Assembly: GCA_005790605.1 (NCBI GenBank)
Contig: SXUI01000068.1
Coordinates: 1-64,000 of the forward strand
Reading direction: 5' to 3'
Source of the DNA: Planctomycetia bacterium
GTDB taxonomy: Bacteria; Planctomycetota; Phycisphaerae; Phycisphaerales; SM1A02
DNA: 64,000 bases
In this document: positions 690 through 63,887 of the stretch, one piece after another
How positions within the stretch are numbered: position 1 is the first letter of the stretch
Layout: every line of letters starts with the position of its first letter
Notes under the pieces: model-generated
What the model was told of the DNA's origin: nothing
The model's input: the letters and a program-made list of their open reading frames with translations, nothing else
Database searches by the model: none
Made by a program: the position numbers and the translations under genes

Positions 690-695
690 TACAAT
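690..695 (+). promoter_or_regulatory. -10 box TACAAT, 7 nt before ATG 703
   Basis: TACAAT followed by CGGCTCC and then ATG. The box sits in the 8-bp palindrome TTGTACAA (687-694), in the divergent GNAT/secreted-protein spacer. At this spacing the mRNA would start at or next to the start codon. Confidence 0.5.
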
Positions 696-702
696 CGGCT
701 CC

Positions 703-1365
703 ATGCGTCTGCGAGGATCCAAAGTCGTCTTTTCCCCAATGCACACAGTCCGCGTCGCGGTTCTTTGCGCGTCGCCCTTCGCCGCGAGCGTACTGCTGGC
801 GGGGAGCCTCTCCGCAGTCTCTGACGCTGCTCCTTTGCACGCGACCGTCGCGCCTCCGAGCAAGGATCTCTCCTGCACACCCAACGCCATGCGTGTCTAT
901 AAGGACCCGCAGAGTGGGCAGTCCTACGCGTACATCACCTTTGACCTCCTGAACTCGACCGGTGCGGACCGTCGGTTCGCGCCACGATTTGAACTGTTGC
1001 TTGACGACGGCGTCGTCGTAGCGTCAGGGAGCGAGGTCCCCTCGAAGGTCACGCGTGCAATCAAGACCGCGTTGGGTGATCCGCTCGTCGAAGATCAGTT
1101 TCAGGTGCTCGGAACAGTGCTTGAGGGCAAAGAAAACGCTCGCCGCGGTCTCGTCGTCTGGCGAATGACGGAGACTGAGCCCACGGAGGCCACGGTGTTC
1201 ATCACCGGACTCTCGCGCATGTCTGATAAGAATCCACACCCAACCAGTGGGGAGCCCCTGGTCCGTCGCCGGACAATGCGGGTGGACTATGTGATTCCGG
1301 GGGACGCTATCGCGCATACCACCGTGAGTTACGAACCAGGCAAGATCGAGTGGATCATGCGCTGA
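703..1365 (+). CDS. Secreted protein of unknown function
   Basis: 220 aa from ATG 703. An alternative ATG at 739 would give a shorter n-region (MHTVRVAVLCASPF). I chose 703 because of the -10 box directly upstream. A hydrophobic signal-peptide-like stretch ending near VSDAAP is followed by a mature part rich in beta-strand patterns (YAYITFDLLNSTG, FELLLDDGVVVASG, TMRVDYVIPGD). There are no cysteine clusters or catalytic motifs that I recognise. It may be periplasmic or cell-surface. The family is not recognised. The next gene, rpmA, has its own leader, so this looks monocistronic. Confidence 0.65.
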   Translation: MRLRGSKVVFSPMHTVRVAVLCASPFAASVLLAGSLSAVSDAAPLHATVAPPSKDLSCTPNAMRVYKDPQSGQSYAYITFDLLNSTGADRRFAPRFELLLDDGVVVASGSEVPSKVTRAIKTALGDPLVEDQFQVLGTVLEGKENARRGLVVWRMTETEPTEATVFITGLSRMSDKNPHPTSGEPLVRRRTMRVDYVIPGDAIAHTTVSYEPGKIEWIMR

Positions 1366-1373
1366 GAGTTTGA

Positions 1374-1379
1374 TATCCT
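1374..1379 (+). promoter_or_regulatory. Putative -10 (TATCCT) and long leader of rpmA
   Basis: TATCCT lies just after the preceding stop and would give a leader of about 150 nt to rpmA. The leader has a short CGCCC/GGGCG hairpin near 1396-1409 and a direct repeat of GGCTTGCGAG about 40-55 nt before the start, followed by an AGGAGA Shine-Dalgarno. No rplU precedes rpmA, so the usual L21 leader is absent. Confidence 0.35.
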
Positions 1380-1536
1380 CCGCGACTCGGAAAAACGCCC
1401 GCAGGGGCGCCGTGCAGCGTGTTTGGGTAGTTCATTTCAATTCATTGCAATGTTGGCCGTTGAAGCATCGTGCTTCTCGGTGAAGGCTTGCGAGTGACTG
1501 GCTTGCGAGCAATAGGTTTGCTCAGGAGATGCAGTA

Positions 1537-1809
1537 GTGGCACACAAGAAGGGCCAAGGCTCTACAGAAAACGGTCGAGACTCAAACGCGCAGTATCGAG
1601 GCGTGAAGCTTTTCGGCGGCGAGTTTGCGAAGGCAGGCTCCATCATCGTGCGTCAGTGTGGCACGAAGTGGAAAGCTGGATATCTCGTGCACCGCGCGAA
1701 GGATGACACACTCATGGCGCTCGCAGCCGGACATGTCCGATTCCGCGGCGGCAATGTTGACATCATTCCAGCTGATCCAGCGACGCCACGCTACTCCGCA
1801 GTCGGCTGA
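1537..1809 (+). CDS. rpmA: 50S ribosomal protein bL27
   Basis: 90 aa, normal bL27 length. It starts [20 protein letters not shown] and continues with the conserved [14 protein letters not shown] and a basic globular core; the N-terminal extension reaches toward the peptidyl-transferase centre in other bacteria. The start is GTG, fixed by homology and by a Shine-Dalgarno AGGAGA 7 nt upstream (1524-1529). There is no Firmicutes-type cleavable leader. In most bacteria rplU precedes rpmA; here the upstream gene is an unrelated secreted protein. Obg follows after 120 bp, keeping the common rpmA-obg order. Confidence 0.97.
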
Positions 1810-1929
1810 GTTTGCGCGGTCTCCACGCGCGACTCGCACCACGGATGCTTCTTGTGCCGCACCTTTGCCTCGCAGGCATCGCGTGCGGCGTTTCTTTCCG
1901 CGCTGTCTGCGCTCAGCCCGAACTTCAAC

Positions 1930-2961: not shown

Positions 2962-2978
2962 TTCGCGGACGGCACTCG

Positions 2979-4472: not shown

Positions 4473-4479
4473 AGGGATT

Positions 4480-4485
4480 AGTCTA
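4480..4485 (-). promoter_or_regulatory. -10 box TAGACT, 7 nt before GTG 4472
   Basis: On the minus strand TAGACT-AATCCCT-GTG. The motif helps decide the start of the VWA gene, since no ATG precedes the signal peptide closely. Confidence 0.5.
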
Positions 4486-4534
4486 CGCGCAGGCTGCCAT
4501 GAATCGCTGCATTTGTGATGCTGAGGAGTCGTGC

Positions 4535-7479: not shown

Positions 7480-8138
7480 CAGTTTCCTCCGATGGGGTCT
7501 TTTGGGGTGCGTGGGGAAGCACTGGCTGGACTGCGTGGATCCGATCGATCTGCAGTCGTGAGGTGAGAGCGCGTGAGTTGGCGGAGCGCGGCGGCAAGTT
7601 CAGCGGGGGCGTGGATTTCGTTTGGATCGATGAGAAGAGTGACTCCTTGGATAAGGGTGAACGATCGAAGTTCGGCGACGGCGTGGTCTGGTGGTGGGAC
7701 GGAACTGGCCTGAACAGTGGACGGTGTTTCGCAATGCGTGGGCTCCTTGGTTGGGCGATCGAAAAGTACAGTGAGGTGCGATTCGGCAGGCATTGCGAGG
7801 GTGAGCGCTTGGACGAGCGCGTCATCGCTTTGCTGAGGCAGCGCAGACTGAATCTGCGCGAGGGAAAATCCTTCTGCTTGGAGTTGCTTTGCGGCGAGCG
7901 CGCGAACGAGATGTGTCAAGGCGTAGACCGCACGGCGTCCCTGGTAGATGGGCTTTGGGAGAATTCCGAGCGTTTGGTAGAAGCGCACGGTGCGCGTGTC
8001 GATTGCCGACGAGGTCCGACCATCCTCTGATTCGATCCCGAGCTCAAGGAGCGCGGTACTCGCGAGTGAAGTCAGTTCTTCGAGCGACAGTCCGCTCTCG
8101 GGAATTGCTTCAAGGATGTTGGCAATGGCGATTGACAT
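7479..8138 (-). CDS. MerR-like regulator coupled to VIT/VWA protein
   Basis: 219 aa. A winged-helix MerR module spans about residues 15-115 (DTRTVRFYQTLGILPKPIYQGRRAVYALTHLVRALAAKQLQ, residues conserved at the HTH and wing). It is preceded by an N-terminal extension and followed by a proline-rich linker and a short C-terminal domain (SFTLIQGVTLLIDPNEI) with no cysteine ligand set, so it is not a classical metal sensor. The upstream palindrome overlapping a TTGACA -35 implies autoregulation. The TGATG overlap with the VIT/VWA gene suggests that both act in one circuit, perhaps with the VWA protein modulating the regulator (inference). Confidence 0.85.
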   Translation of the reverse strand: MSIAIANILEAIPESGLSLEELTSLASTALLELGIESEDGRTSSAIDTRTVRFYQTLGILPKPIYQGRRAVYALTHLVRALAAKQLQAEGFSLAQIQSALPQQSDDALVQALTLAMPAESHLTVLFDRPTKEPTHCETPSTVQASSVPPPDHAVAELRSFTLIQGVTLLIDPNEIHAPAELAAALRQLTRSHLTTADRSDPRSPASASPRTPKDPIGGN

Positions 8139-8144
8139 GCGAGT

Positions 8145-8172
8145 ATCTTACAGTAACAGCAATCAATGTCAA
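8145..8172 (-). promoter_or_regulatory. Sigma70-type promoter of merR-VIT/VWA operon
   Basis: On the minus strand a -35 TTGACA (8167-8172), 16-bp spacer and -10 TAAGAT (8145-8150), then only ACTCGC before the ATG at 8138. The transcript would be leaderless or nearly so. This is the best -35/-10 pair in the window. Confidence 0.8.
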
Positions 8173-8184
8173 GTGATGTTGACA
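8167..8184. promoter_or_regulatory. Inverted repeat operator TGTCAA-N6-TTGACA
   Basis: A perfect 6+6 inverted repeat with a 6-bp centre, one arm being the -35 hexamer. TTACTGT occurs twice on the minus strand, next to the distal arm and again over the -10. MerR proteins bind palindromes near or in the spacer; this one overlaps the -35, which would fit repression. Confidence 0.6.
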
Positions 8185-8246
8185 GTAAATCGTGAAAATC
8201 ACATAACCTCTTCAAATCAAAAGAGTTGCGGAATCGAAGTTTGGGA

Positions 8247-10922
8247 TCAAACGCCGGACTTGAGCCGACGGAGTACGTCAAAGGCATCCATCGGGGTCAT
8301 GGAGTCTAGGCTGAGCGTTCGGAGTTGTTGCAGCACCGGGTGTTCAAGGAACCCCGTGAAGAGCGGCATCTGCGTTTCGTTCCGCTCGCGTTTGGGGAGC
8401 GCGATTGGCGTGCGATGCGTTGCAGCGTCCGGTGACGGAAGCACCGCGAGCGCTTCGAGAATTTCCTTCGCGCGCGCGATCGTTTCTGGCGGAAGACCTG
8501 CAAGTCGCGCAACATGAATGCCGTAACTGCGATCGGTGCGGCCGAGCAGAATGCGATGCAAGAACACGACCTCGTCATTCCACTCTCGCACCGCGACATG
8601 AAGATTGACGACGCGCGAATCTTCTTCCGCGAGTTGTGTGAGTTCGTGATAGTGCGTGGCGAAGAGCGTGAGTGATTGCCGTTGTGTGAGCGTCTCAGCA
8701 GTGGCCCACGCAAGGCTGAGTCCATCGAGCGTGCTTGTGCCGCGACCGATCTCGTCGAGAATGACAAGGCTTCGCTCCGTGGCATGGTGGAGAATGTTGG
8801 CTGTCTCAGTCATCTCCACCATGAATGTGGATTGACCGGTGTGCAGTTCATCGGCGCTTCCGATGCGAGTGAAGATTCGATCGAGAAGCCCGATCGTCGC
8901 GTCTTCAGCAGGAACGAAGGAGCCCACATGCGCGAGCAAGGCGATAAGCGCCGTCTGCCGGATGAAGGTGCTCTTGCCAGCCATATTGGGGCCCGTGATC
9001 AGTGCGAGCGTTCCAATCGAGCTCGACGCATGCGATCCGCCGAGCGACAGGTCATTGGGCACGAAGCGGGTGCCAAGCGATCGCTCAAGCACGGGGTGGC
9101 GACCGCCGGTGTAGTGGACGATCGGTTCAGCGACGATGGTTGGACGGGTCCACCTGTACTGCTGCGCCGTCGCGGCGAGTCCAAAGAGCGCGTCGATTTC
9201 CGCTGCGATTTCCCCGAAATGCAGGATGCTGCGAACAATCTCAAGGCCTTGGCCAACCAGTTGGGCGAGGAGTTCCTTCTCGCGTTCGAGCGCGCGACTC
9301 TCGGCACGCAGGACCTTCTCCTCAAACTCTTTGAGCTCGGGCGTGATGTAGCGCTCGGCGTTTCGGAGGGTTTGCCGTCGTGTGAAATGCGCGGGAGCTT
9401 TGGCGCTCGACGCGGCGGTGAGTTCGATGTAGTACCCAAAGACGCTGTTGAAGCCGACCTTCAGGTTGGCAATTCCAGATTCTTCAGCGAGCTTGGTTTG
9501 GTATCGCGCGAGCCACGCGCTCGCATCCCGTTGCAGCAGTCGCTGTTCGTCGAGGAGCGCGTCGACGCCGTCGCGAAACACGCCACCTGTGTGCGCTGCA
9601 AGTGGGGGCGCATCAACAAGCATGTGCCGGAGCGTCTCGCCATACGGCACCAGCACGGCTGCGAGTGCTGTCGCCGCGCTTGCGTATTGGTGCAGCGCAT
9701 CGTGGCTGCTGATGATGTCGCGAAGCGCATCCGCTTGGACGAGAGATCGAGCGAGTGAGGCGAGGTCGCGTGGCGTGACGCGAGCAAGTGCAACGCGACC
9801 GCCGATGCGCTGCACATCGGCGATGCAATCAAGCAGACTCGCTGTCGCGTCACGGAGTTGTTCGACTTCGATAAATGCAGCGACCGCCCGTTGGCGCGCA
9901 AGTATTTTGTCCTCCTGCGCGAGTGGGAAGCACAGCCAATCGCGGAGGAGTCGTTTGCCCATGGGCGTGCGAAGTCCGCCAAAGACGCTCAGGAGGCCGA
10001 GCGAGCTATCAAGCGATCGCATCGTTCGCTCAACCTCAAGCGCGCGCAGGCTTGAGGCATCGATTGCGAGCGCGCTGCTGAGCGATCGTCGCTTCGGTGG
10101 AGCGACGTGTGCTAAAGCTCGTGTATGCGGCGTGGAGGCGGGTTGCGTTTCAAGGACATATCGAAGGAGCGCACCCGCGGCGCTCAGCGCCGGATCTTCT
10201 GCGGTGAATCCAAATCCCTCAAGACTTCCAACGCAAAACTGCGCTTTGAGCGCGTCGATTGCATCCGTCTGTCGGAAGTACCAACCAGGTCGCGCCGTCA
10301 GTGGCGTCGGCGAACTCGCGTGCAGCGATGCAATGTGCGCAGGGAGGATCCCGTCTCGCGCTTCCGCAAAGAGAATCTCGGACGGTGCGAGCCGCGCCAA
10401 CTCGTCGCAGAGCGAGACGAGTGGCACATCAATGACTTCAAACGCGCCCGTCGAAAGTTCGATCGATGCGAGATGCGCGACGTCGGCCGCGCAATGCACG
10501 GCGACCGACTTGCACGCGCTTGATGGATCGAGCAGCGCATCGTCGATCAGTGTGCCTGGCGTAATGACTCGCGTGACCGCTCGTTCAAGGACTCCCTTTG
10601 CGTCCTTCGGATCTTGCGTCTGTTCAGCCACCGCGACGCGGTGCCCGAGGGCGACCATTTTCCGCAGATACGGTTCCGCTGACTGATACGGAACGCCAGC
10701 CATCGGAAGGCCCTTGGTCCGCTCCGTGAGGCTGATGCCAAGTGCCTTGTGCGCGACGAGCGCGTCTTCCGCGAACAACTCGTAAAAGTCGCCCATGCGG
10801 AAGAACAGCACGCACTCGGGATGCGCGGCTTTGAAGGCCGCGTACTGCTTCATGGCTGGCGACTGAAAGTGCTGCGCATACGCGGTCGCACTTGTGGAGG
10901 AGGTTTCGCCCGTCGCGGCCAT
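8247..10922 (-). CDS. mutS: DNA mismatch repair protein MutS
   Basis: 891 aa, normal for MutS1. The N-terminal mismatch-binding domain carries the Phe-x-Glu motif region (CVLFFRMGDFYELF). The ATPase domain has Walker A ITGPNMAGKST, DEIGRGTSTLDGLSLAWA (Walker B and signature) and FATHYHELTQL. It recognises base mismatches and recruits MutL; no mutL is in the window. The start ATG 10922 is supported by TAGACT 6 nt upstream. It is convergent with nothing; merR lies 108 bp downstream on the same strand with its own promoter. Confidence 0.98.
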   Translation of the reverse strand: MAATGETSSTSATAYAQHFQSPAMKQYAAFKAAHPECVLFFRMGDFYELFAEDALVAHKALGISLTERTKGLPMAGVPYQSAEPYLRKMVALGHRVAVAEQTQDPKDAKGVLERAVTRVITPGTLIDDALLDPSSACKSVAVHCAADVAHLASIELSTGAFEVIDVPLVSLCDELARLAPSEILFAEARDGILPAHIASLHASSPTPLTARPGWYFRQTDAIDALKAQFCVGSLEGFGFTAEDPALSAAGALLRYVLETQPASTPHTRALAHVAPPKRRSLSSALAIDASSLRALEVERTMRSLDSSLGLLSVFGGLRTPMGKRLLRDWLCFPLAQEDKILARQRAVAAFIEVEQLRDATASLLDCIADVQRIGGRVALARVTPRDLASLARSLVQADALRDIISSHDALHQYASAATALAAVLVPYGETLRHMLVDAPPLAAHTGGVFRDGVDALLDEQRLLQRDASAWLARYQTKLAEESGIANLKVGFNSVFGYYIELTAASSAKAPAHFTRRQTLRNAERYITPELKEFEEKVLRAESRALEREKELLAQLVGQGLEIVRSILHFGEIAAEIDALFGLAATAQQYRWTRPTIVAEPIVHYTGGRHPVLERSLGTRFVPNDLSLGGSHASSSIGTLALITGPNMAGKSTFIRQTALIALLAHVGSFVPAEDATIGLLDRIFTRIGSADELHTGQSTFMVEMTETANILHHATERSLVILDEIGRGTSTLDGLSLAWATAETLTQRQSLTLFATHYHELTQLAEEDSRVVNLHVAVREWNDEVVFLHRILLGRTDRSYGIHVARLAGLPPETIARAKEILEALAVLPSPDAATHRTPIALPKRERNETQMPLFTGFLEHPVLQQLRTLSLDSMTPMDAFDVLRRLKSGV

Positions 10923-10928
10923 GAACGG

Positions 10929-10934
10929 AGTCTA
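10929..10934 (-). promoter_or_regulatory. -10 box TAGACT, 6 nt before mutS ATG
   Basis: TAGACT-CCGTTC-ATG on the minus strand, with a weak -35 candidate TTCGCG 17 bp further upstream. Confidence 0.5.
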
Positions 10935-11163: not shown

Positions 11164-11169
11164 TATCCT
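11164..11169 (+). promoter_or_regulatory. -10 box TATCCT, 8 nt before ZIP gene ATG
   Basis: TATCCT-CCTGCCCC-ATG, located between the tRNA gene and the transporter start. Confidence 0.5.
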
Positions 11170-11177: not shown

Positions 11178-12221
11178 ATGCAATCAACCGCGCTCGATCA
11201 ACAATCTCCTGTGCTCGGCATCTTCGTCGGCCTCATCTGTCTTGCGTCCGTGGCCGGCGGCGCGTTGGCGACAGCGCTGAAACTCGGGCACCGCCGATTG
11301 CAGCTGGCGTTGAGTGTGGTCGCGGGCGTGATGTTGGGGGTCGGGTTCCTCCATCTCCTTCCGCACGCCGTGATGCTCGCGCTTGAGCCCGCGATGGACG
11401 GCGCCGCCGCGGGGGGGCACGATTCGCACGGTTCGATGCATGCGAGTCTTGATGGCGTGATGCTGGCGATGCTTGCTGGCTTCGCGATCATGTTCTTGCT
11501 CGAACGACTCTTTCATTATCACCAGCACGAGCCGCTTGAAGCGGCGCATGAACATGATGCGTGCTGCGATGGTCACCACCATCCGCCGCTCACAGGCCAT
11601 GGGAAGTCGCGATCTGAGCGTGGGACGCCAGCGCACGCTCATCATGGCGTCCGCCAAACTTCTTGGATCGGCGCGGCTGTCGGCATGTCCCTTCACAGTT
11701 TTCTCGAGGGCGTTGCGCTCTCGGCGGCGGTGATGGCTGATCTCGCCGCGGGCGGCACTGGTGCGATCGCTGGACTTGGGACTTTTCTCGTCATTCTGCT
11801 GCACAAGCCGTTCGACTCGATGACCGTCATCACGCTTGCGCGCGCGAGTGGTCGTTCGACTGCGCAAGCGCACCTCATCAACATCGGGTTCGCACTCGTC
11901 GTTCCAATCGGGTCGCTTGTCTTCATGCTCGGTGCGCAGGGGCATGAATCAACATTGCTTCCTTACGCGTTGGCGTTTGCGGCGGGGACCTTCGTATGCA
12001 TCGCTTCGAGCGACTTACTTCCAGAATTGCAGTTCCATAGGCATGACCGCGTGGCGCTGAGTTTGGCGCTCTTGTTTGGCCTTGCCATCTCGATTGCCGC
12101 AGCTCGAATCGAGTCGCACTTTGCGCAGCATGTGCACGACGCCGCGACCGACGCAACAGGAGCAGATCACGAGGGGCATGATCACAAGGGTCATGATCAC
12201 GAGGGTCACTCCCATGATTGA
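11178..12221 (+). CDS. ZIP-family divalent metal transporter
   Basis: 347 aa, about eight predicted membrane segments. The cytoplasmic His-rich loop (LFHYHQHEPLEAAHEHD, GHHHPPLTGHG) and the transport motif GMSLHSFLEGVALS together with LLHKPFDSM place it in the ZIP family. The C-terminus is a repeat of HxGHDHEGH units encoded by a nearly tandem GGTCATGATCACGAG repeat. It likely imports zinc or another divalent cation across the inner membrane. The ATG at 11178 is 8 nt after TATCCT. A small gene follows 18 bp downstream and may be cotranscribed. No metal-dependent regulator is next to it. Confidence 0.92.
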   Translation: MQSTALDQQSPVLGIFVGLICLASVAGGALATALKLGHRRLQLALSVVAGVMLGVGFLHLLPHAVMLALEPAMDGAAAGGHDSHGSMHASLDGVMLAMLAGFAIMFLLERLFHYHQHEPLEAAHEHDACCDGHHHPPLTGHGKSRSERGTPAHAHHGVRQTSWIGAAVGMSLHSFLEGVALSAAVMADLAAGGTGAIAGLGTFLVILLHKPFDSMTVITLARASGRSTAQAHLINIGFALVVPIGSLVFMLGAQGHESTLLPYALAFAAGTFVCIASSDLLPELQFHRHDRVALSLALLFGLAISIAAARIESHFAQHVHDAATDATGADHEGHDHKGHDHEGHSHD

Positions 12222-13733: not shown

Positions 13734-13739
13734 ACAATA
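13734..13739 (-). promoter_or_regulatory. -10 box TATTGT, 7 nt before ATG 13726
   Basis: TATTGT-CGCTCGA-ATG on the minus strand; it decides the methyltransferase start among several in-frame ATGs. Confidence 0.45.
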
Positions 13740-13778: not shown

Positions 13779-16604
13779 ATGACCGACGCAAGCAGTACTC
13801 GTAGTTACAAGGAAACCGTTCGCCTTCCGAAGACGACCTTCGCGATGAAGGCCAACTTGGTGCAGAACGAACCAGCTTCCATGAAGCGCTGGGATGCCAT
13901 GGACCTGCAGTCGCAACTGCTTGCCCTTCGGCGCGCTGCGGAGCCTTTCGTCTTTCACGATGGGCCTCCGTATGCCAATGGGAACATCCATGCGGGGCAC
14001 ATGCTGAACAAAGTCTTGAAGGACTTTGTCGTGCGCGCGGCGCTCATGGAAGGTCACCGAGTGCACTATGTCCCTGGATGGGATACGCATGGGCTTCCCA
14101 TTGAGCACAAGGTGATGACGGAACTCCATGAGAAGGGGAAGGCCGCCAAGATTGATGGTCTCGAACCCGATGCGCGGCGCATGGCGATCCGCCGCGAGTG
14201 TGCCGCGAGTGCGAAGAAGTTCATCGACCTCCAGACGACGCAAATGAGGCGGCTCTTGACACTCGCCGACTACGCGCATCCGTACTTCACGATGATGCCG
14301 GAGTTTGAATCGAAGGTGCTCGAAGTCTTCGCGCTCTTGCTTGAACAGGATGTCGTGTATCGCGCGCTCAAACCAGTGCACTGGTCCATCGCGAACAAGA
14401 CGGCGCTCGCAGAGGCTGAACTTGAGTACGAAGATAGGGTTGATCTCTCGGTTTATGTTGACTTCGAAGCAAGTGATCGCGCGAAGCTTGAGGCGGTGTT
14501 TGGCTGCGAGATCGATGTCACTCCGTCCTTCATGATTTGGACAACGACGCCATGGACACTTCCGGCGAATCTGGCGATCGCCGTGCATCCGCGCAATCGT
14601 TACGCGCTTGTCACGATGGACGGCTCAACTTCGATTTTGGCCAGTGAACTCGTCGATCGCGTCGCGCAGAAGGCGGGCGTGGAGAGTGTGGTTCGTCTCG
14701 CTGAAGTTGATGGTGAGCAGTTGCTCGGCCTCGCGTATCGACATCCGTTCTGTGATCGCGAGGGGCGAATCGTTGCGGCCGACTATGTCACGCTCGACGA
14801 TGGAACGGGACTTGTGCACACCGCGCCCGGTCATGGCGCCGACGATTACCGCACTGGATTGAAGGAAGGGCTCGCGGCGTACTGCCCGGTTCGCGAGGAT
14901 GGGACCTACGACGACACGGTTCCGGCATGGCTTGTCGGAAAGTTGATTTGGGACGCGAACGCGGAAGTGGTCGAGCATCTTCGCGAGAGCGGTCATCTTT
15001 TCTTCGATCACAAGTTCACACACTCGTACCCGCATGATTGGCGATCGAAGACACCAGTCATTTTCCGTTCTACGGAGCAGTGGTTCATTTCTGTCGATCG
15101 ACCGACGAAGCGCGACAAGAAGAGTCTGCGCACGATGGCAGTCGAAGCGGTCGACCAGCACATTGCATTCGTGCCCGACTGGGGACGCAACCGCATGCGC
15201 GGCATGCTTGAATCCCGACCAGATTGGTGTCTCTCGCGGCAGCGTGCGTGGGGATTACCCATTCCGGCATTCCGGAGACCCGACGGCAGCATTTTCCTCA
15301 CCGCGGCAAGTGTGCGTGCGATCGCTGCGCGTGTCGCGGAAAAGGGGAGTGACTGCTGGTTCATGGAGACACCAGCGGAATTGCTTTCGAAGTACGACGC
15401 GGCGAACGACCCGGACGCTCCCCAGGACCTCGATGTCTCGACCATCACCAAGCTTTACGACATTTTCGATGTCTGGTTTGAGGCCGGGAGTTCATGGAAT
15501 GCTGTGCTGCGCGCGCGTGGCCTCGGATACCCAAGTGAGGCGTATCTGGAAGGTTCGGATCAGCACCGCGGGTGGTTCCAGCTCTCACTGCTGCCCGCGC
15601 TTGGAGCGACCGGCGTTGCGCCGTTCAAGCGCCTCGTGACGCATGGCTTCATCGTCGACCGCGATGGAAAAAAGATGTCGAAGTCGCTTGGGAACACGAT
15701 CGAAGTCGAAGCCGTGATGAAGGATCATGGCGCGGATGTCGCACGATGGTGGACGAGCTCCATCGACTACGAGAACGACATTCGTATGGACATGGAGTAT
15801 TTCAGTGTCGCAGGCGAGTCCTATCGCAAGGTTCGCAACACGCTTCGGTATCTGCTCTCAAACCTTGAGGACTTTGACCCAGCGGCTCACATGATTTCGC
15901 CGAGCGCACATCGCCCTGATTCACTTGAGGCGTGGATGCTCGGAGAGCTCGCTGCGCTGCAGAGTGGCGTTCGAGCGTCATACAAGGCGTTCCAATTCCG
16001 CGACGGCACGCGGGCGATCTTTGACTTCTGCAATGACACGCTGAGTGCTGGGTATTGCGTTGCCACGAAAGACCGTTTGTACTGCGATGCGCTCGATGCT
16101 CCGCGACGCCGAGCAGCGCAGAGTGCGATGTACACCGCAACGGCGACGCTCTGTCGATTGCTTGCGCCGATTCTCCCACACACTGCGGATGAAGCGTGGC
16201 GCGTTCTTCTTCGCGACGACACGGCGTGCATCATGCGCGAGCAGTACGCTGCACTTTCCGTGATCGCGGATGCGGGATGGAAGGCAGTCTTCGCGCTCGA
16301 GGAGCGGGTTGGCAAAGCGCTTGAAGAGGCAAAGGCTTCTGGCATCGACAACAAACTCGACGCAGGTCTCGTGCTCCCTGACGAGCTCGGAGTGCTGCGC
16401 CCATTTCTTGCGGATCTCGCCGATGTCTTTGGCGTGAGTCGCGTGCGATTGACGACCGATGTGGCCTCAACAGCGGTGCGAGTGGAAGACCTCCGCGATC
16501 AGCCGCGATGCGAACGAAGTTGGCGCCGAGACGCGAGCGTTCGACTCCGAAGCGACGGAGGCATGCTCAGCGATCGAGACGCGCTCGCGGTCGGTCTTGT
16601 GTAG
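13779..16604 (+). CDS. ileS: Isoleucyl-tRNA synthetase
   Basis: 941 aa, class Ia synthetase charging tRNA-Ile. The HIGH motif is seen in PYANGNIHAGHMLNK and KMSKS in DGKKMSKSLGN; the CP1 editing domain has TTPWTLPANLAIAV, and WCLSRQRAWGLPIP is typical. The anticodon-binding C-terminal part is present. The terminal zinc finger of this family, normally two CxxC pairs around a KCeRCW motif, has decayed: it reads PRCERSWRRDASVRLRSDG with one cysteine and no second pair. The start MTDASSTRSYKETVRLPKT matches family N-termini. It is convergent with the beta-helix gene. Confidence 0.97.
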   Translation: MTDASSTRSYKETVRLPKTTFAMKANLVQNEPASMKRWDAMDLQSQLLALRRAAEPFVFHDGPPYANGNIHAGHMLNKVLKDFVVRAALMEGHRVHYVPGWDTHGLPIEHKVMTELHEKGKAAKIDGLEPDARRMAIRRECAASAKKFIDLQTTQMRRLLTLADYAHPYFTMMPEFESKVLEVFALLLEQDVVYRALKPVHWSIANKTALAEAELEYEDRVDLSVYVDFEASDRAKLEAVFGCEIDVTPSFMIWTTTPWTLPANLAIAVHPRNRYALVTMDGSTSILASELVDRVAQKAGVESVVRLAEVDGEQLLGLAYRHPFCDREGRIVAADYVTLDDGTGLVHTAPGHGADDYRTGLKEGLAAYCPVREDGTYDDTVPAWLVGKLIWDANAEVVEHLRESGHLFFDHKFTHSYPHDWRSKTPVIFRSTEQWFISVDRPTKRDKKSLRTMAVEAVDQHIAFVPDWGRNRMRGMLESRPDWCLSRQRAWGLPIPAFRRPDGSIFLTAASVRAIAARVAEKGSDCWFMETPAELLSKYDAANDPDAPQDLDVSTITKLYDIFDVWFEAGSSWNAVLRARGLGYPSEAYLEGSDQHRGWFQLSLLPALGATGVAPFKRLVTHGFIVDRDGKKMSKSLGNTIEVEAVMKDHGADVARWWTSSIDYENDIRMDMEYFSVAGESYRKVRNTLRYLLSNLEDFDPAAHMISPSAHRPDSLEAWMLGELAALQSGVRASYKAFQFRDGTRAIFDFCNDTLSAGYCVATKDRLYCDALDAPRRRAAQSAMYTATATLCRLLAPILPHTADEAWRVLLRDDTACIMREQYAALSVIADAGWKAVFALEERVGKALEEAKASGIDNKLDAGLVLPDELGVLRPFLADLADVFGVSRVRLTTDVASTAVRVEDLRDQPRCERSWRRDASVRLRSDGGMLSDRDALAVGLV

Positions 16605-18704: not shown

Positions 18705-18710
18705 TACATT
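18705..18710 (+). promoter_or_regulatory. -10 box TACATT, 8 nt before ATG 18719
   Basis: TACATT-TCAATCAG-ATG, placed 57 nt after the orphan terminator's T run. Confidence 0.5.
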
Positions 18711-22665: not shown

Positions 22666-22689
22666 ACTCTATGCCAATCGCATTATGCT
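22666..22689. promoter_or_regulatory. Divergent udk-like / nupC promoter region
   Basis: Minus strand: TAGAGT (22666-22671) 6 nt before the kinase GTG. Plus strand: TATGCT (22684-22689), which would give nupC a leader of about 20 nt with a GAGGA Shine-Dalgarno. The two -10 boxes are 12 bp apart, so polymerases probably compete. Confidence 0.45.
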
Positions 22690-27792: not shown

Positions 27793-27798
27793 TACGCT
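27793..27798 (+). promoter_or_regulatory. -10 box TACGCT, 6 nt before ribE GTG
   Basis: TACGCT-CGAAGG-GTG. The GTG start is fixed by the conserved (M)FTGLIQ N-terminus of riboflavin synthase, so this spacing does not depend on the motif itself. Confidence 0.6.
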
Positions 27799-28754: not shown

Positions 28755-28760
28755 ATCGTA
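28755..28760 (-). promoter_or_regulatory. -10 box TACGAT, 8 nt before PCD ATG
   Basis: TACGAT-GCAACGTC-ATG on the minus strand. Confidence 0.5.
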
Positions 28761-28842: not shown

Positions 28843-28848
28843 TACGAT
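28843..28848 (+). promoter_or_regulatory. -10 box TACGAT, 7 nt before DUF192 ATG
   Basis: TACGAT-TTCACGC-ATG. The same hexamer serves the divergent pterin dehydratase 82 bp away. Confidence 0.5.
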
Positions 28849-34478: not shown

Positions 34479-34484
34479 TACGAT
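34479..34484 (+). promoter_or_regulatory. -10 box TACGAT, 7 nt before GTG 34492
   Basis: TACGAT-TCGCGCC-GTG. The GTG is fixed by the conserved MLLLIDNYDSFT N-terminus. Confidence 0.6.
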
Positions 34485-34491: not shown

Positions 34492-35097
34492 GTGCTCCTC
34501 CTGATTGACAATTACGATTCCTTTACCTTCAACCTCGTGCAGCGATTTGGGGAACTTGACGCATCGCTCGAAGTGATGGTGGTGCGCAATGACCGCATCA
34601 CCGTGGACGAGGTTGAAGCGCTGCAGCCCGAGTATCTGGTGATTTCACCAGGACCGTGCACACCCAAGGAAGCGGGCGTATCTGCCGCGCTCATTCAACG
34701 CTTCAAGGGCCGCATTCCCATTCTCGGGGTTTGCCTCGGTCACCAGACGATCGGTGATTGTCACGGCATGCTCGTTCGGCGCAATGACATTCCAGTGCAT
34801 GGCAAGACGAGCGAGCTTGAGCATGACGGGCGCGGCATTTTCGCGGGGCTCGCGCATCCTTTTATCGCGACGCGCTACCACTCACTCGTGGTTGAGCGTT
34901 CGACGGTTGGGCCAGAGTTTGAAATCAGCGCGTGGACCGCGCGTGGTGAGATCATGGCGTTGCGATGGAAGGCGCCCGAGGGACAGGCGCCGATGGACGG
35001 AGTGCAGTTTCATCCAGAGAGTTTTTTGACCCTTGAGGGTCCGAAGCTCATGGACAACTTCCTCCGTTCAGCGTCTCGCTACACTCTGTCGCCATGA
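34492..35097 (+). CDS. Anthranilate/aminodeoxychorismate synthase glutaminase (TrpG/PabA)
   Basis: 201 aa, class I glutamine amidotransferase. LLLIDNYDSFTFNLVQ, ISPGPCTPKEAG, the catalytic Cys in GVCLGHQTIG, and the His-Glu pair in GVQFHPESF. It provides ammonia to TrpE or PabB; neither is adjacent, so it may serve both pathways as in other bacteria with one copy. GTG start. The next gene overlaps its stop as ATGA, so a three-gene operon with the hypothetical and the oxidoreductase is likely. Confidence 0.93.
   Translation: MLLLIDNYDSFTFNLVQRFGELDASLEVMVVRNDRITVDEVEALQPEYLVISPGPCTPKEAGVSAALIQRFKGRIPILGVCLGHQTIGDCHGMLVRRNDIPVHGKTSELEHDGRGIFAGLAHPFIATRYHSLVVERSTVGPEFEISAWTARGEIMALRWKAPEGQAPMDGVQFHPESFLTLEGPKLMDNFLRSASRYTLSP
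35080..35085 (+). promoter_or_regulatory. Possible internal -10 (TACACT) in pabA operon
   Basis: TACACT-CTGTCGCC-ATG lies within the last codons of the TrpG/PabA gene, 8 nt before the start of the next gene, so this gene could be both cotranscribed and separately started. Confidence 0.35.
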
Positions 35098-35513
35098 CCG
35101 TACAGAGCCCTCGATTTCCCACGACTTGTCGAGCAACCTTGCTTGGCGCTTCGGATGGCCGCGTCGTGATTCGTCCGCCTTCGACGGAGTACGCGTTGAC
35201 CTTCGATTTGCCTGCAGGAATCGCGTGTCCCGTCGCGGTCGGGAGTCGCATCGCCGGAAAGATCTCTGCGCGCGCGCAGAAGATGCACTTCGCGCACGCC
35301 GGCGGTGAGTTCGTCGAGCCGCTTGTCGGATCGCCACGCATCGTGCAGGGCAAGATTCGAGAGGTTGATGCTGCACGCAACGCGCTGCTCATCGAAGCCA
35401 TCGTGCCGATGTGGATGTCGCTCGCTGAAGGGCAGCGCGCGTGTGACATGGAACTGGGTGCGCTCATGAATTTCTATGTCGAGCCTGGTGCGACATTCCA
35501 ACCCATCGCGTGA
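35094..35513 (+). CDS. Hypothetical all-beta protein
   Basis: 139 aa, no signal peptide or membrane segment. Beta-strand-rich by eye (RATLLGASDGRVVIRPP, YALTFDLPAGIACPVAVGSR, KIREVDAARNALLIEAIVP), which is compatible with a PilZ- or OB-like barrel, but no PilZ RxxxR motif is clear. It overlaps the upstream gene by ATGA and the downstream gene by GTGA. Family not recognised. Confidence 0.65.
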   Translation: MTVQSPRFPTTCRATLLGASDGRVVIRPPSTEYALTFDLPAGIACPVAVGSRIAGKISARAQKMHFAHAGGEFVEPLVGSPRIVQGKIREVDAARNALLIEAIVPMWMSLAEGQRACDMELGALMNFYVEPGATFQPIA

Positions 35514-42608: not shown

Positions 42609-42614
42609 TATCAT
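42609..42614 (+). promoter_or_regulatory. -10 box TATCAT, 7 nt before M1 peptidase ATG
   Basis: TATCAT-TGCGAGA-ATG. Confidence 0.5.
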
Positions 42615-45919: not shown

Positions 45920-45926
45920 TACACTA
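45920..45926. promoter_or_regulatory. Overlapping divergent -10 boxes
   Basis: One 7-bp stretch TACACTA reads TACACT on the plus strand (9 nt before ATG 45935) and TAGTGT on the minus strand (10 nt before ATG 45910). If both are used, the two promoters exclude one another. Confidence 0.4.
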
Positions 45927-56271: not shown

Positions 56272-57459
56272 ATGATGACCCCACTTGGTTGGACAATCTT
56301 TGCCCTCGCCTGTTGCGGAGCGCTCTACTGGTTGATGCTCTTCGTACGCATCGCTCGCGCGCTTCCTGCCATTCCCCGTGTAGAGGACGCCGATGGATTG
56401 CCGCACGCACAAGCTCGGGTGTCCATCGTTATTCCAGCGCACAATGAGAGCCGGGTGATCGCCGAGAGCGTGCGAGGGCTTCGTGCGCAGGTCGGTGTCG
56501 ACTTCGAAGCGACCTATGTGCTCGATCGGTGCAACGACGACACCCGCGCGCTGCTCGTCGCCGCGGCTGAAGGCGACCCGCGTATTCGGTTCATTGAAAA
56601 CGCGCACTGCCCAGACGATTGGGCGGGGAAATGCTTCGCGGCGAGTCTTGGCGCGAAGCAAGCGACGGGAGACTGGATCCTCTTCACGGATGCGGACTGC
56701 CGATTTGGAGAAACGCTCGTTCGAAGCATGCTCCGCATCGCGGCGAAACGCCAGACGGCGCTGCTCTCTGCGATCGGACGACTCACCTTTGGACGAAGCT
56801 TCGAACGGCAACTCCAGCCGGTTGCGTCGATGGTGCTTCTGCGCATTTTTCCGCTTGACAAAGCGAATCGTGAAGATCGTTGCTGGCCATTCGCAAATGG
56901 CCAGTTCTTGCTGTTCAAACGAGAGGCGTACGAAGCGATCGGTGGTCACGCGAGCGTGAAGGACGATCTGTTGGAGGACCTCGCTTTCGCCAAGCGGTTG
57001 CATGTGGCAGGCCAGCGCATCGGTGTGGTGGATGCCGGCACTCGGATGGAAGTTTCGATGTACGACAGTCCGCTCGCGATGCGTCGCGGCTGGACGCGCA
57101 TTTTCATTGAGAGTTGTGGTCGTCGACCGCGGGCGCTGCGGTTGCGGGCGGCGGAGTTTTTCACAACTGGAGTTGTCCTCCCCCTCGGTGCGTGTGCTGC
57201 CATCACCGCAAGTGGTTCCTACGAGGATGACATCGCAGCGTTTCTCATGCTCTCGCTTTCAGGCGCGTGTTCCCTCGGATGCATGGTGATCAGTTTGACT
57301 TGGATGCATCGGCTTTCCTACGCGCCCTATCGCGGCATTTGTTTTCATCCGTATGCCGCGTTCACGATTGCGCGCTGGCTCCTCGACGGTGCTCGCATCC
57401 TCGAGAGACGCGAGCGTGTGCGTTGGGGCGGTCGCGAATATGTCCTCGATCCAAGGTAG
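56272..57459 (+). CDS. Membrane-bound family-2 glycosyltransferase
   Basis: 395 aa. One N-terminal membrane segment (TIFALACCGALYWLMLF), a GT-A domain with VSIVIPAHNES, the DxD-type FTDADCRFG, and WPFANGQFLLFKREAYEAIG plus LEDLAFAKRLHVAGQRIG, then C-terminal membrane segments. It is close to glycosyltransferases of carotenoid or hopanoid lipid pathways (CrtQ/HpnB type), but the acceptor cannot be named. surE starts 9 bp after its stop. It might act with the SHC-like protein, 14 kb away; this is speculation. Confidence 0.82.
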   Translation: MMTPLGWTIFALACCGALYWLMLFVRIARALPAIPRVEDADGLPHAQARVSIVIPAHNESRVIAESVRGLRAQVGVDFEATYVLDRCNDDTRALLVAAAEGDPRIRFIENAHCPDDWAGKCFAASLGAKQATGDWILFTDADCRFGETLVRSMLRIAAKRQTALLSAIGRLTFGRSFERQLQPVASMVLLRIFPLDKANREDRCWPFANGQFLLFKREAYEAIGGHASVKDDLLEDLAFAKRLHVAGQRIGVVDAGTRMEVSMYDSPLAMRRGWTRIFIESCGRRPRALRLRAAEFFTTGVVLPLGACAAITASGSYEDDIAAFLMLSLSGACSLGCMVISLTWMHRLSYAPYRGICFHPYAAFTIARWLLDGARILERRERVRWGGREYVLDPR

Positions 57460-57462
57460 CAT
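57457..57462 (+). promoter_or_regulatory. -10 box TAGCAT overlapping the GT2 stop codon
   Basis: TAGCAT-CATCGA-ATG, with the TAG stop of the upstream gene forming the first three bases of the box. surE could therefore be transcribed as a leaderless mRNA from the end of the upstream gene. Confidence 0.5.
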
Positions 57463-59739: not shown

Positions 59740-59745
59740 ATCTTA
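59740..59745 (-). promoter_or_regulatory. -10 box TAAGAT, 6 nt before GTG 59733
   Basis: TAAGAT-GACTCC-GTG on the minus strand. Confidence 0.5.
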
Positions 59746-60827: not shown

Positions 60828-60875
60828 CGAAAGTGCCACCGCCCGCGGTTTGGTCGGCCGCAGCCGAGTTTTCGC

Positions 60876-61400: not shown

Positions 61401-61478
61401 ACGCGCACGCGCTTGGGCCGGAATGCCATCATGGTGGAGGGGCGCGTCCGCATTGCGCGCACGCTGCGCACGGTGTGT

Positions 61479-61811
61479 TCATCCAGAAATCTCGACGATG
61501 CGCTGTCCGGCCGCAAACGCTTCAACGATCGACGGTAGGGCGCGATCCATGACCGCAAGGAGTGCATCCTTTCGGCAGTTTCCAACCCGAACCCAAAGCA
61601 ATTGGCCGCTTTCGCCCGCGCGATTCGCGAGATAGAACAAGTCCTCGTCCTTGCTCACGATAACCCGACCCTCGCGCTGAGCCCACGACCACAAGGCAAG
61701 ATCGCTTGACGCGTCAAGCCCAACATTGGCAACATGTACTGCATCGTGACCCGCTTCAACGAGGTGCCGAGAAAGGCTCGGAGGCAATTGATTGTCGACG
61801 ACAAACCTCAT
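61479..61811 (-). CDS. DUF5615 PIN-like protein (putative toxin)
   Basis: 110 aa. FVVDNQLPPSLSRHLVEAGH with the first acidic residue, LALWSWAQREGRVIVSKDEDLF with the acidic pair typical of PIN-like nucleases, and a short C-terminal helix. Predicted to be a toxin ribonuclease paired with DUF433. Its start overlaps the upstream DUF433 gene by ATGA. Activity not demonstrated for this protein. Confidence 0.82.
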   Translation of the reverse strand: MRFVVDNQLPPSLSRHLVEAGHDAVHVANVGLDASSDLALWSWAQREGRVIVSKDEDLFYLANRAGESGQLLWVRVGNCRKDALLAVMDRALPSIVEAFAAGQRIVEISG

Positions 61812-62038
61812 GCGACCCGGACGACCGCGTGACTCGTTTGGACGGCGGCATATGCGATGGCCGCGAGGATGTCATCCCGTTCAAGTGTGGGATGATCCGC
61901 AATGATCTCGTCGATCGTCGCTCCACTCGAGAGCAACTCAAGGAGGTCGCACACACGCATGCGCTTCCCCCGGATGCACGGACGACCGCCACACTTGCCA
62001 GCTTCAAGGGTGATGCGCTCAAGCAGCAGGAGGTTCAT
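61808..62038 (-). CDS. DUF433 protein (putative antitoxin/DNA-binding)
   Basis: 76 aa. The family layout is clear: ERITLEAGKCGGRPCIRGKR then VCDLLELLSSGATIDEIIAD and HPTLERDDILAAIAYAAV, a helix-turn-helix-like fold. It precedes and overlaps DUF5615, the usual order. TATACT is 7 nt before ATG 62038, with a 14-bp palindrome directly upstream, which suggests autorepression by this protein or the complex. Confidence 0.85.
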   Translation of the reverse strand: MNLLLLERITLEAGKCGGRPCIRGKRMRVCDLLELLSSGATIDEIIADHPTLERDDILAAIAYAAVQTSHAVVRVA

Positions 62039-62045
62039 GATGACG

Positions 62046-62051
62046 AGTATA
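62046..62051 (-). promoter_or_regulatory. -10 box TATACT, 7 nt before DUF433 ATG
   Basis: TATACT-CGTCATC-ATG on the minus strand, the closest match to the sigma70 -10 consensus in the window. Confidence 0.6.
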
Positions 62052-62064
62052 CCGCTGCAGCGGT
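62051..62064. promoter_or_regulatory. 14-bp palindromic operator candidate (ACCGCTGCAGCGGT)
   Basis: A perfect palindrome that abuts the -10 box of the DUF433/DUF5615 pair and lies in the -35/-10 spacer. The position fits a repressor site for antitoxin autoregulation. Confidence 0.5.
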
Positions 62065-62317
62065 GGATTCATTGAATTTCTCGCCATTTCGGCGCTGAGC
62101 GAATGCGCCGCCGGTGGGGGATGAACGAGTTGAGTGACCAAGGACGACACTGGGCGCAGGAATTGGCTCGCCGCCCTAGACATGGACATGCACGCCCCTC
62201 GGAGCGCATGGTTGAGCAGCCTTTAGCTTCGACAATGCTGTCGTGTTGGATGAGACCTTCGCCGCTCGAAAGCTCCTTTTCCTCCTCATGGCGAAGGATG
62301 CGCCAGCTCTCGGCATT

Positions 62318-63145
62318 TCACTTCGGGCATCCCCCCCAACCATTGAGCACGATGGTGAGATCTGCAGCATCGACTGTGCCATCTCCGGTGAGGTCAGTTA
62401 CGAACTCGCCCTTGCCGGATGATCCCCAATCGCCAAGAAGAGCTGCGAGGTCGACGCCATCAATCGTGCCGTTGCCGCTGACATCACCAGGACATGGACT
62501 ACAAGAAACTCCGGCGTCGCAACAATCAGGAACCCCATTGGAGTTTGCGTCCTCGAAGGTGCCATCGAGAATCTGTCCGTAGTCGACGATGCCGTCGGCA
62601 TTGCAATCGGCAGACCATTCGATGACATAGGACGGGCCGGACAAGTTACTCCCACACGGATCGGGGTAGCCCGCATCATTCCACCAATCAGACGGCATCC
62701 CAGAACCATTCTGTGTTACGAAGTCGAGGTAATCCTCGCCACCACAACCATCGTTCGGTTCACCGCTCTACCAATGCGACCATGTCCACGGTTCGCCTGA
62801 CACCCAAGTCCACTCGGCATGGGGTTCACCTGTTCCCGCCGGTTGGTAGCCACCGAGCCACGGACCGACCATGTATGGGGGGCTTGCGTTCCAACCAGCC
62901 GGATTGCTGCAGACAGTCGCAACAAAGGCATTTTCTAGTTGCGAGGTTGGGCAAGCCAAGTATCCACCCGCGTTCGTCGCTTCGACTTGCGCATCATTCC
63001 AAGATATCTGCGGCCCGATTATGAATTCATATCAATGCGCATTCCCGCCATCCTCAATGCGCCACTGCACCGCTTGCCCGTTCGCAAACTGCGAGCATGT
63101 GAACAGCCCCGCGAACACCGATGCCACCACGAGTTCAAGTTTCAT
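62318..63145 (-). pseudogene. C-type-lectin/dockerin secreted protein broken by two nonsense codons
   Basis: One frame runs from ATG 63145 to TAG/TGA-free end at 62318 except for TGA at 63032-63034 and a TAG at 62767-62769. The N-terminus is a signal peptide (LVVASVFAGLFTCSQFANGQ); then VQWRIEDGGNAH-stop-YEFI (a Trp codon TGG to TGA would restore GGNAHWYE), a C-type-lectin-like domain (SWNDAQVEATNAGGYLACP, GPWLGGYQPAG, SGEPNDGCGGEDYLDFVTQN), an SADCNADGIVDYGQILDGTF motif, and two dockerin-like repeats. No frameshift occurs, so the decay looks recent. Confidence 0.8.
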
Positions 63146-63265
63146 GAGCGTTTCTCCGTGAACGATGCCACCTACGCGCAGGGGATCGAAACCTCTTCGA
63201 ACCGCACGCGCCGTACTTATCCATGCGAAAATCGCGACAGAGTCCTCAATCAAATCGCCAAAGTT

Positions 63266-63293
63266 TTGCGTAATGGAGGGGACGGGGTACAGT
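63266..63293 (+). promoter_or_regulatory. Promoter of ECF sigma gene (TTGCGT-N16-TACAGT)
   Basis: TTGCGT (63266-63271), a 16-bp spacer and TACAGT (63288-63293), then 6 nt (TTCGGT) to GTG 63300. It decides the GTG start over an ATG at 63273. Confidence 0.55.
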
Positions 63294-63299
63294 TTCGGT

Positions 63300-63887
63300 G
63301 TGTCGGCACCCACACTCACTGCGAAACTGAACCTTGCGCTCGAAGGCGACGCCGTAGCGGCAGAGCGAGCCTGGAGCGAGGTTTACGCCGAGGTGCGCGC
63401 CATTGCCGCCATGGCGCTCACGCACGAGTCGGGCCCGGAGGTAGCGGGCGCGGATCTTCAGCCCACCGGCCTCGTGCACGAAGTTTTTCTTCGGCTTGAC
63501 CGAAGCCCGCCACGAGAGTGGGAAAGTCGGCGCCACTTTTTTGGCGCGGTCGCGCAGGCATGCGAGCGGGCCTTGATCGATCTCGCGCGGTTGCGCAATG
63601 CGGCGAAACGCGGTGGGGGAAACCCTCATATACCCCTTCGTTTCGTCGCTGGAGAACTTGCTGATCCACAAAGTGCAGCGTCGGCGGCGGAGTTCGGTCT
63701 GCCGGCCGTGCTTTCGGCGTTTGCGCTGAGGTATCCGCGCGCCGCCGAGGTCGCGCGATTGCGCTACATGCTCGGATTACCAAGCGCCGAAATCGCGCGT
63801 GCGCTCGCGGTGAGCGAATCGACCGTCGAGAAGGATTGGGCGTTCACCCGTGCGTGGCTTCGACGCGAACTTGATCGATCGTTGTGA
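63300..63887 (+). CDS. ECF-family RNA polymerase sigma factor (planctomycete type)
   Basis: 195 aa. Region 2 includes EGDAVAAERAWSEVYAEVRA and region 2.4-like HFFGAVAQACERALIDLARL; AKRGGGNPHIPL lies between; region 4 (ARLRYMLGLPSAEIARALAV, SESTVEKDWAFTRAWLRREL) is a clear helix-turn-helix. The pattern DLQPTGLVHEVFLRL is typical of the planctomycete ECF group usually paired with a Ser/Thr kinase. A gene of that kind may start at 63918. Confidence 0.9.
   Translation: MSAPTLTAKLNLALEGDAVAAERAWSEVYAEVRAIAAMALTHESGPEVAGADLQPTGLVHEVFLRLDRSPPREWESRRHFFGAVAQACERALIDLARLRNAAKRGGGNPHIPLRFVAGELADPQSAASAAEFGLPAVLSAFALRYPRAAEVARLRYMLGLPSAEIARALAVSESTVEKDWAFTRAWLRRELDRSL

Follow-up and report, generated by a model that had tools for sequence, protein, structure and literature searches.

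TANNNT boxes adjoining start codons point to abundant leaderless genes in a planctomycete of the order Phycisphaerales, whose coding sequences are depleted of the motif

The DNA described here is a stretch of 64,000 nucleotides (the window) at the beginning of contig SXUI01000068.1 in a genome assembly of a Planctomycetia bacterium of the order Phycisphaerales (GCA_005790605.1). Its genes include ribE, surE, mutS, trpG/pabA and a gene for an ECF sigma factor. A preliminary description of the window had claimed that a TANNNT hexamer lies a few nucleotides before the start codons of 19 genes, and all 19 hexamers are present (Table 1). Writing d for the number of nucleotides between the end of TANNNT and the start codon, we find d = 6 at seven of them, d = 7 at seven, d = 8 at four and d = 9 at one. 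From the sequence evidence set out below, we consider it highly probable that these boxes are sigma-70-type −10 elements of leaderless transcripts, with promoters that essentially lack a −35 element, and that this arrangement serves about a fifth of the genes.

The genome assembly has 80 contigs (3.03 Mb, 99% complete, 60% GC), and the window is part of contig 57. The bacterium is probably a freshwater member of the Phycisphaerales. Our sample of the genome, with the window counted in, amounts to 1.33 Mb, and we called 813–816 genes in it with a simple codon-usage caller that is blind to the motif. The 1.27 Mb that remain when the window is excluded (~42% of the genome) were used as held-out DNA. 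Our main test compares in-frame with out-of-frame start codons near gene starts, counting those that have a TANNNT ending at d = 6–9. In the held-out DNA, 136 of 1600 in-frame ATG codons (8.5%) have the box, compared to 12 of 2092 out-of-frame ATGs (8/1395 + 4/697, or 0.57%; Fisher P = 4e-37). GTG codons are also enriched (26/1422 in frame versus 13/2227 out of frame; Fisher P = 7e-4). CTG is not a usual start codon, and as an in-frame negative control it has the box in only 5 of 944 cases (0.53%). The in-frame ATG counts are 49, 42, 20 and 25 at d = 6, 7, 8 and 9, and 0 to 5 per position at d = 2–5. A lack of genome-wide enrichment at 6–9 nt had been named beforehand as a result that would speak against leaderless genes; what we found in the held-out DNA is an enrichment of about 15-fold with a peak at d = 6–7. 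The accompanying estimate that chance would supply the box before a few percent of genes was too high, because TANNNT is depleted in this genome. Over the whole sample, window included, the box precedes 157 of 731 genes and 26 of 731 out-of-frame controls, so the share of genes with a box would be about 18–21%. The same test gave 16/189 in frame versus 2/172 out of frame in Deinococcus radiodurans MP1, our positive control, and 2/81 versus 2/117 in Escherichia coli, our negative control, for which only 50 kb was used.

Choosing start codons because a motif stands in front of them would generate a pattern of this type, and the motif had helped to choose four of the starts in the preliminary description, some of whose starts differ from those preferred by codon score. 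We give practically no credence to such an artefact as the source of the pattern, because it is refuted by the motif-blind test on held-out DNA. It is also contradicted by a scan in which the motif was not specified and which covered every base triple with a span of ≤8 nt within 25 nt upstream of starts, with expectations taken from out-of-frame ATGs. The top-ranked triple is TA...T at −12..−7 (50 observed versus 1.5 expected) and the second is TA...T at −13..−8 (42 versus 3.0). If the start codon begins at +1, positions −12..−7 are where a −10 box is classically found. Lower in the ranking are triples that resemble Shine-Dalgarno (SD) sites, as well as others such as C....A.G at −16..−9 (53 versus 9.9). 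A third point against the artefact is that the surE start is fixed by homology in relatives of the window's gene (see below). Several starts in the window had been described as fixed by homology, and this holds for ribE, trpG/pabA and surE, where position 1 of the NCBIfam profile falls on residue 1; for mutS, where residue 21 matches profile position 2, the support is weaker, and the gene starting at 62038, previously labeled DUF433, has no NCBIfam match. In ten other genes with a box (TA-led genes, and selected as such), the NCBIfam matches begin near the N-terminus: profile position 1 falls on residue 1 in an asparagine synthase (which begins MCG), sucD, manC and cysS, and there are 7–10 extra N-terminal residues relative to the profile in trpS, alaS and gltX.

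We found that the box is strongly associated with particular gene arrangements. In the sample including the window, and with out-of-frame counts in matching gene classes as controls, it precedes 35 of the 58 genes whose upstream neighbor is divergent and <100 bp away (control 4) and 52 of the 186 with a divergent neighbor at a wider gap (control 4), which is about a third of all genes with a divergent neighbor (87/244). Where the upstream neighbor is on the same strand, the box is present before 25/124 genes at gaps of 30–100 bp (control 4), 31/213 at gaps of at least 100 bp (control 7), and 14/150 at gaps of <30 bp (control 7), these last being operon-internal genes. Because it is concentrated before divergent genes and near background within operons, the box is a property of genes that start transcripts. 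SD cores are found before only 5 of 157 TA-led starts, compared to 75 of 731 random positions inside genes. They are found before 57 of 136 operon-internal starts without a box, and before 37/134, 3/23, 25/99 and 36/182 starts in the other box-less classes. In summary, first genes have the −10 box adjoining their start, and SD sites reach their highest frequency within operons. A pattern search of the sampled stretches did not find a clear 3' end of this genome's own 16S rRNA.

These distributions make it very improbable that the motif is a translation-initiation element and not a promoter, for example an A/T-rich or S1-binding site of the kind discussed for Bacteroidetes and Cyanobacteria. 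The idea gains something from a 2017 survey (PMC5397173) that, in the accessible part of its text, was unable to separate leaderless signals from RPS1 signals. However, a translation element should mark operon-internal genes as well as first genes, which is at odds with the 14/150 seen inside operons (control 7/150) and the 35/58 at close divergent gaps; we found one pattern at a fixed spacing; and inside genes TANNNT is avoided as much on the antisense strand as on the sense strand (see below), which would be meaningless for translation.

For a −10 element, the question is where the transcript begins. The base at −1 is a pyrimidine in 98 of 128 TA-led ATG starts, compared to 219 of 345 other ATG starts (P = 0.008), and in 36% of the 55 ATGs that have a box inside genes. 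This bias is expected if the A of the ATG is the transcription start. The elements might instead be genuine −10 boxes whose transcripts have very short leaders of about 2–8 nt and are not strictly leaderless, as could be argued from the range of d, which spans 6 to 12 with a tail, and from the surE genes of relatives, where d = 9 is more frequent than any other distance. We view this as rather unlikely, since the peak at d = 6–7 in the window's own genome places +1 on the start codon, and at the 22 ATG sites with d = 9, 81% of the bases at −2, and likewise at −1, are pyrimidines, which disfavors transcription starts before the A.

Apart from the box, little else marks these promoters. A sequence logo of 145 sites (window included) consists of TANNNT alone, in which C is mildly preferred at positions 3 and 5; upstream of the box it is flat with nothing clear at the place of a −35 element. 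The best match to TTGACA (spacers of 15–19 nt) averages 2.75 of 6 bases, compared to 2.68 in shifted controls, and word counts were likewise negative. We considered whether the lack of −35 elements could be caused by loss of region 4.2 from the sigma factor, but this is unsupported: the apparent principal sigma factor, which seems to be divided between the ends of two contigs, C37 and C48, has retained a region 4.2 that is close to that of E. coli RpoD. One site in the window has a full −35 element and is an exception among these −35-less sites: by eye, there is a TTGACA-16-TAAGAT promoter at the 8138(−) gene (8138–8200), with an inverted repeat TGTCAA/TTGACA spanning the −35. The product of this gene has a weak match to MerR.

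The surE gene allowed the box to be followed into other genomes. We used the best 80 of 170 relatives found in a SurE protein search, the closest of which is 88% identical; by their record titles nearly all are planctomycetes and many are Phycisphaerales, though some titles are clearly wrong (e.g. Chitinophaga). The start codon is at the aligned position in 76 of these 80 relatives, and the box is conserved at d = 6–9 in 26 of the 76, with two more at d = 10, even though the surrounding bases differ. The commonest distance is d = 9 (17 of the 76). Six changes account for the box (d 6–10) on a tree with 81 SurE proteins, compared to 23.8 when the labels are shuffled, and in the supported clade that contains the window all 16 of 16 rows have it, window included. 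Genes flanking surE in the relatives' loci show enrichment too (29/472 in frame versus 0/579 out of frame, five identity groups summed), although these loci are partly orthologous and their counts are not independent. In five genomes of the order that belong to three other families, the pooled counts are 19/494 versus 3/607 (P = 9e-5). There was no enrichment in two genomes from the same class but outside the order (3/89 versus 11/145, and 5/86 versus 8/116), nor in six of the eight other planctomycetes sampled; the remaining two may have a slight enrichment, with counts that are small (G023, 3/34 versus 1/83; G020, 4/107 versus 1/117). Across these samples, the trait looks concentrated in the window's order and strongest in the window's own genome. 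When 19 window proteins (surE apart) were followed into the relatives' loci, only those of genes 13726, 59733 and 63300 were matched, and only 59733 had usable N-termini.

Inside genes, TANNNT is scarce. Relative to synonymous-codon shuffles that keep both the protein and the codon usage, it occurs in the coding DNA of this genome at 0.23 of expectation overall, with 1001 observed versus 4134 expected on the sense strand (0.24) and 843 versus 3780 on the antisense strand (0.22); in the window alone there are 83 versus 410 expected. When the gap between TA and T is varied, the ratio is 0.24 at gap 3 and 0.46–0.68 at other gaps (0.46–0.52 at gaps of the same phase), so general avoidance of TA accounts for part of the depletion. 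The factor that is specific to TANNNT is about 0.5 relative to same-phase gaps, and 0.36 when TANNN with a last base other than T is the reference. Of the 1792 base triples, just two are more depleted, TAA and the reverse complement of TANNNT; the trinucleotide TAA is at 0.20 of expectation in these coding sequences. Several hexamers of the sigma-70 kind are very scarce: TATAAT occurs once (36 expected), TATACT not at all (about 42–44 expected), TATGAT 3 times (156 expected), TACAAT 8 times (114 expected) and TACACT 11 times (103 expected), whereas hexamers differing in the last base are not depleted (TACAA[ACG], 416 versus 349 expected; TACAC[ACG], 550 versus 463). The most avoided bases at the three middle positions are T, A and A, which spell out TATAAT, the −10 consensus of E. 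coli. TAGGTT is not avoided (61 versus 58 expected), and TAACGT is strongly avoided despite being unlike the consensus (2 versus 110 expected).

We compared this depletion with that in other sequences. The ratio is 0.19–0.40 in the surE loci of relatives, 0.37–0.54 in genomes of the same order, 0.87–0.89 in the same class outside the order, 0.33–0.89 in other planctomycetes, 0.55 in D. radiodurans MP1 and 0.78 in E. coli. In a comparison of 20 sequence sets, among them the small Rhodococcus pRHL1 (0.40) and Thermus pTT27 (0.60) sets, the raw ratio is lowest in the window's genome. It is improbable that codon or dinucleotide bias in a GC-rich genome simply produced the depletion as a by-product, with no connection to promoters. 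In favor of this reading, TA is avoided in general, avoidance tracks GC across the 20 sets (Spearman −0.79), and the off-consensus TAACGT is also strongly avoided. However, protein and codon usage are already preserved in the shuffles, only gap 3 shows the dip, the two strands are equally depleted, the most avoided middle bases give TATAAT, and two sets of similar GC (G050 and G107) are much less depleted. We also tried to link avoidance to leaderless usage across genomes. Avoidance is correlated with start enrichment over the 20 sets (Spearman −0.65), but this vanishes within the 14 sets with GC >0.57 (−0.13, P = 0.67), so the comparison does not establish a link.

Several observations weigh against the interpretation of the boxes as promoters of leaderless genes, or limit its reach. 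The box is absent from most genes, being present in 15 of the 40 genes that the motif-blind caller found in the window and in 157 of the 731 sampled, so many first genes must have another arrangement or a misplaced start. Gene starts rest on a home-made caller, and the enrichment at TTG codons in the held-out DNA is weak (14/916 in frame versus 22/2938 out of frame). There is a tail of 36 in-frame ATGs with the box at d = 10–12, a hint that leaders a few nucleotides long occur on some transcripts. An attempt to anchor starts across the sample by homology (tblastn of called open reading frames against relatives) matched 203 genes but yielded only 7 usable anchors, because there were too few relatives to compare; 2 of the 7 have a box at d 6–10, and one of these is surE itself. 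Among relatives, 48 of the 76 surE genes with an aligned start have no box at d 6–10, and the evidence from other genomes of the order convinces only in pooled form (e.g. G082 by itself, 2/102 versus 1/116). The box of gene 59733 is seen in only one of eight relatives with a reachable start, with none at d 6–10 in the other seven, which implies that the box turns over. Lastly, another planctomycete, G060, avoids TANNNT strongly (61 versus 190 expected) without any start enrichment. Given this genome and the loss of the correlation above 57% GC, we treat the coupling of depletion to leaderless expression as a hypothesis.

Some divergent genes in this genome are packed very closely. With starts shifted to a box wherever there was one, 34 of 122 divergent pairs have 0–100 bp between their starts, and both genes have a box in 14 of the 34. 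In three of the 122 pairs we identified, by eye, a single symmetric −10 that is common to both strands; these pairs (L056, L007 and L058) are candidates for bidirectional promoters. Using motif-blind starts, gaps of <100 bp are commoner than in sets outside the order (29/122 versus 10/118, P = 0.0015), and gaps of <50 bp are not clearly commoner (14/122 versus 9/118). No general enrichment of symmetric −10s was seen, with A at −4 from the box in 13% of cases versus a background of 20%, and there are 18 pairs among the 122 in which both genes are TA-led, barely more than the 15.5 that independence would predict.

Of the 19 sites in the window, 15 belong to the 40 genes found by the motif-blind caller. 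Three of the others, 28746(−), 35094(+) and 62038(−), precede short genes that this caller missed, and the site of 45935(+) is too distant from its called start. The listed start and the codon-score start disagree at 703, 11178, 18719, 28856, 45935 and 63300. The start of gene 35094–35513 overlaps the stop region of gene 34492–35097, and because its TANNNT is in the coding sequence of that preceding gene, 35094 could be translationally coupled instead of leaderless. The ECF sigma factor encoded at 63300–63887(+) belongs to the Sig-70_X6 subfamily and is itself predicted to be leaderless.

Table 1. TANNNT boxes before start codons in the window, and three close divergent pairs with a symmetric −10 from the genome sample.
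Feature	Position	Strand	d (nt)	Start	Remarks
TANNNT −10 box	690..695	+	7	703	codon-score start 835
TANNNT −10 box	4480..4485	-	7	4472 (GTG)	
TAAGAT −10 box	8145..8150	-	6	8138	TTGACA 16 nt upstream, by eye
TANNNT −10 box	10929..10934	-	6	10922	mutS; MutS profile position 2 at residue 21
TANNNT −10 box	11164..11169	+	8	11178	codon-score start 11211
TANNNT −10 box	13734..13739	-	7	13726	divergent from gene 13779
TANNNT −10 box	18705..18710	+	8	18719	codon-score start 18581
TANNNT −10 box	22666..22671	-	6	22659 (GTG)	
TANNNT −10 box	27793..27798	+	6	27805 (GTG)	ribE; NCBIfam profile position 1 on residue 1
TANNNT −10 box	28755..28760	-	8	28746	4a-hydroxytetrahydrobiopterin dehydratase
TANNNT −10 box	28843..28848	+	7	28856	divergent from 28746; codon-score start 28877
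TANNNT −10 box	34479..34484	+	7	34492 (GTG)	trpG/pabA; start fixed by profile
TANNNT, doubtful as promoter	35080..35085	+	8	35094	inside preceding coding sequence
TANNNT −10 box	42609..42614	+	7	42622	
TANNNT −10 box	45920..45925	+	9	45935	codon-score start 45617
TAGCAT −10 box	57457..57462	+	6	57469	surE; start fixed by profile; box conserved in relatives
TANNNT −10 box	59740..59745	-	6	59733 (GTG)	equal spacing in L082 orthologue
TANNNT −10 box	62046..62051	-	7	62038	
TANNNT −10 box	63288..63293	+	6	63300 (GTG)	ECF sigma factor TIGR02999; codon-score start 63273
L056 pair	10127-10145	divergent			17 bp between starts, TACTATA; candidate bidirectional promoter
L007 pair	11986-12012	divergent			25 bp between starts, AGTGTACGAT; candidate bidirectional promoter
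L058 pair	14447-14475	divergent			27 bp between starts, AAGGTACCCT; contig 57, ~14.4 kb past window end; candidate bidirectional promoter

The location of the boxes before first genes, the scarcity of SD cores there, the pyrimidine bias at −1 and the sigma-70-like pattern of avoidance all support the leaderless reading proposed in the preliminary description, and a stronger statement of it is justified: leaderless, −35-less expression is predicted for about a fifth of genes, alongside a strong depletion of the motif in genes. In the mechanism that we propose, a housekeeping sigma-70-type factor would read TANNNT as its −10 element, and with the box at −12..−7 from the start codon, transcription would begin at the start codon or within about 3 nt of it. 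The resulting mRNA would be leaderless, translation would initiate on it in that form, and the promoter would be essentially a −10 element alone. This mode would serve roughly one gene in five, and roughly one in three of those with a divergent neighbor, and operon-internal genes would more often use SD sites. Because so short a signal would otherwise fire everywhere, we infer that TANNNT was lost from both strands of coding DNA by selection against spurious transcription, the strongest sigma-70 versions above all. More tentatively, and with somewhat less than even confidence, we suggest that this amounts to an economy based on a single hexamer, in which TA...T suffices to specify the start of both transcript and protein, specificity lies in the absence of decoys (the strongest hexamers being purged 10- to 30-fold from both strands of genes), and the purge allows divergent genes to be packed to within 17–27 bp around a shared symmetric −10.

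Leaderless genes with TANNNT are known in Actinobacteria and Deinococcus-Thermus, as the preliminary description had said, and a 2011 survey lists the groups that have leaderless genes, with 207 of 953 genomes (Zheng et al. 2011, PMC3160421). Its other remark, that the pattern was not known to be described for this group, stands in part: in the accessible text of the 2011 paper, Planctomycetes are neither in the list of groups nor in the main text, but a 2017 survey (PMC5397173) includes Planctomycetes, represented by one species, among groups with a nucleotide bias from leaderless mRNA and/or RPS1. As far as its accessible text goes, that survey has no test of motif, spacing or gene context for its planctomycete, and S1 sites are not separated. 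The genes described here are like the TA-led genes of Zheng et al. in having the first T about 12 bp upstream, in comprising about a fifth of genes, in their weak middle bases at high GC, and in occurring alongside SD genes; they differ in belonging to another phylum. In Deinococcus-Thermus, a −10 motif alone was shown experimentally to be sufficient for leaderless expression (Zhong et al. 2025, PMC12340547), and there as here the motif adjoins the start with little dependence on other sequence, although expression from a −10 alone is in our case a prediction, to which the depletion inside genes lends indirect support. Froula and Francino (2007, PMC1939733) found −10 hexamers to be under-represented in coding DNA in 24 of 42 genomes and over-represented in 9. 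The scarcity that we report is similar, in a planctomycete genome, a group with no entry in the species table of that paper, and one predicted to use leaderless promoters that lack a −35; effect sizes cannot be compared directly, because that paper gives standard-deviation units and we give ratios (0.23 overall, <0.1 for several hexamers). A table of anti-SD types in a 2024 paper includes the class Phycisphaerae. Among the matches listed in our literature search, which covers titles and the beginnings of abstracts and mostly leaves subscription journals outside, there was no report of 5'-end mapping or of abundant leaderless genes in Phycisphaerales. Leaderless TANNNT genes and avoidance of −10 hexamers are thus each already known, and abundant predicted leaderless expression in this planctomycete order is an extension of them.

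If the prediction is right, abundant leaderless expression extends to an order of planctomycetes, where gene callers that look for SD sites may misplace starts and where the TANNNT box would serve as an internal marker of start codons. The −10 preference of a housekeeping sigma factor would be readable from what coding sequences avoid. Minimal divergent leaderless pairs would be compact test objects for bidirectional promoters, and the question of how RNA polymerase finds promoters that contain so little information would become testable in these bacteria.

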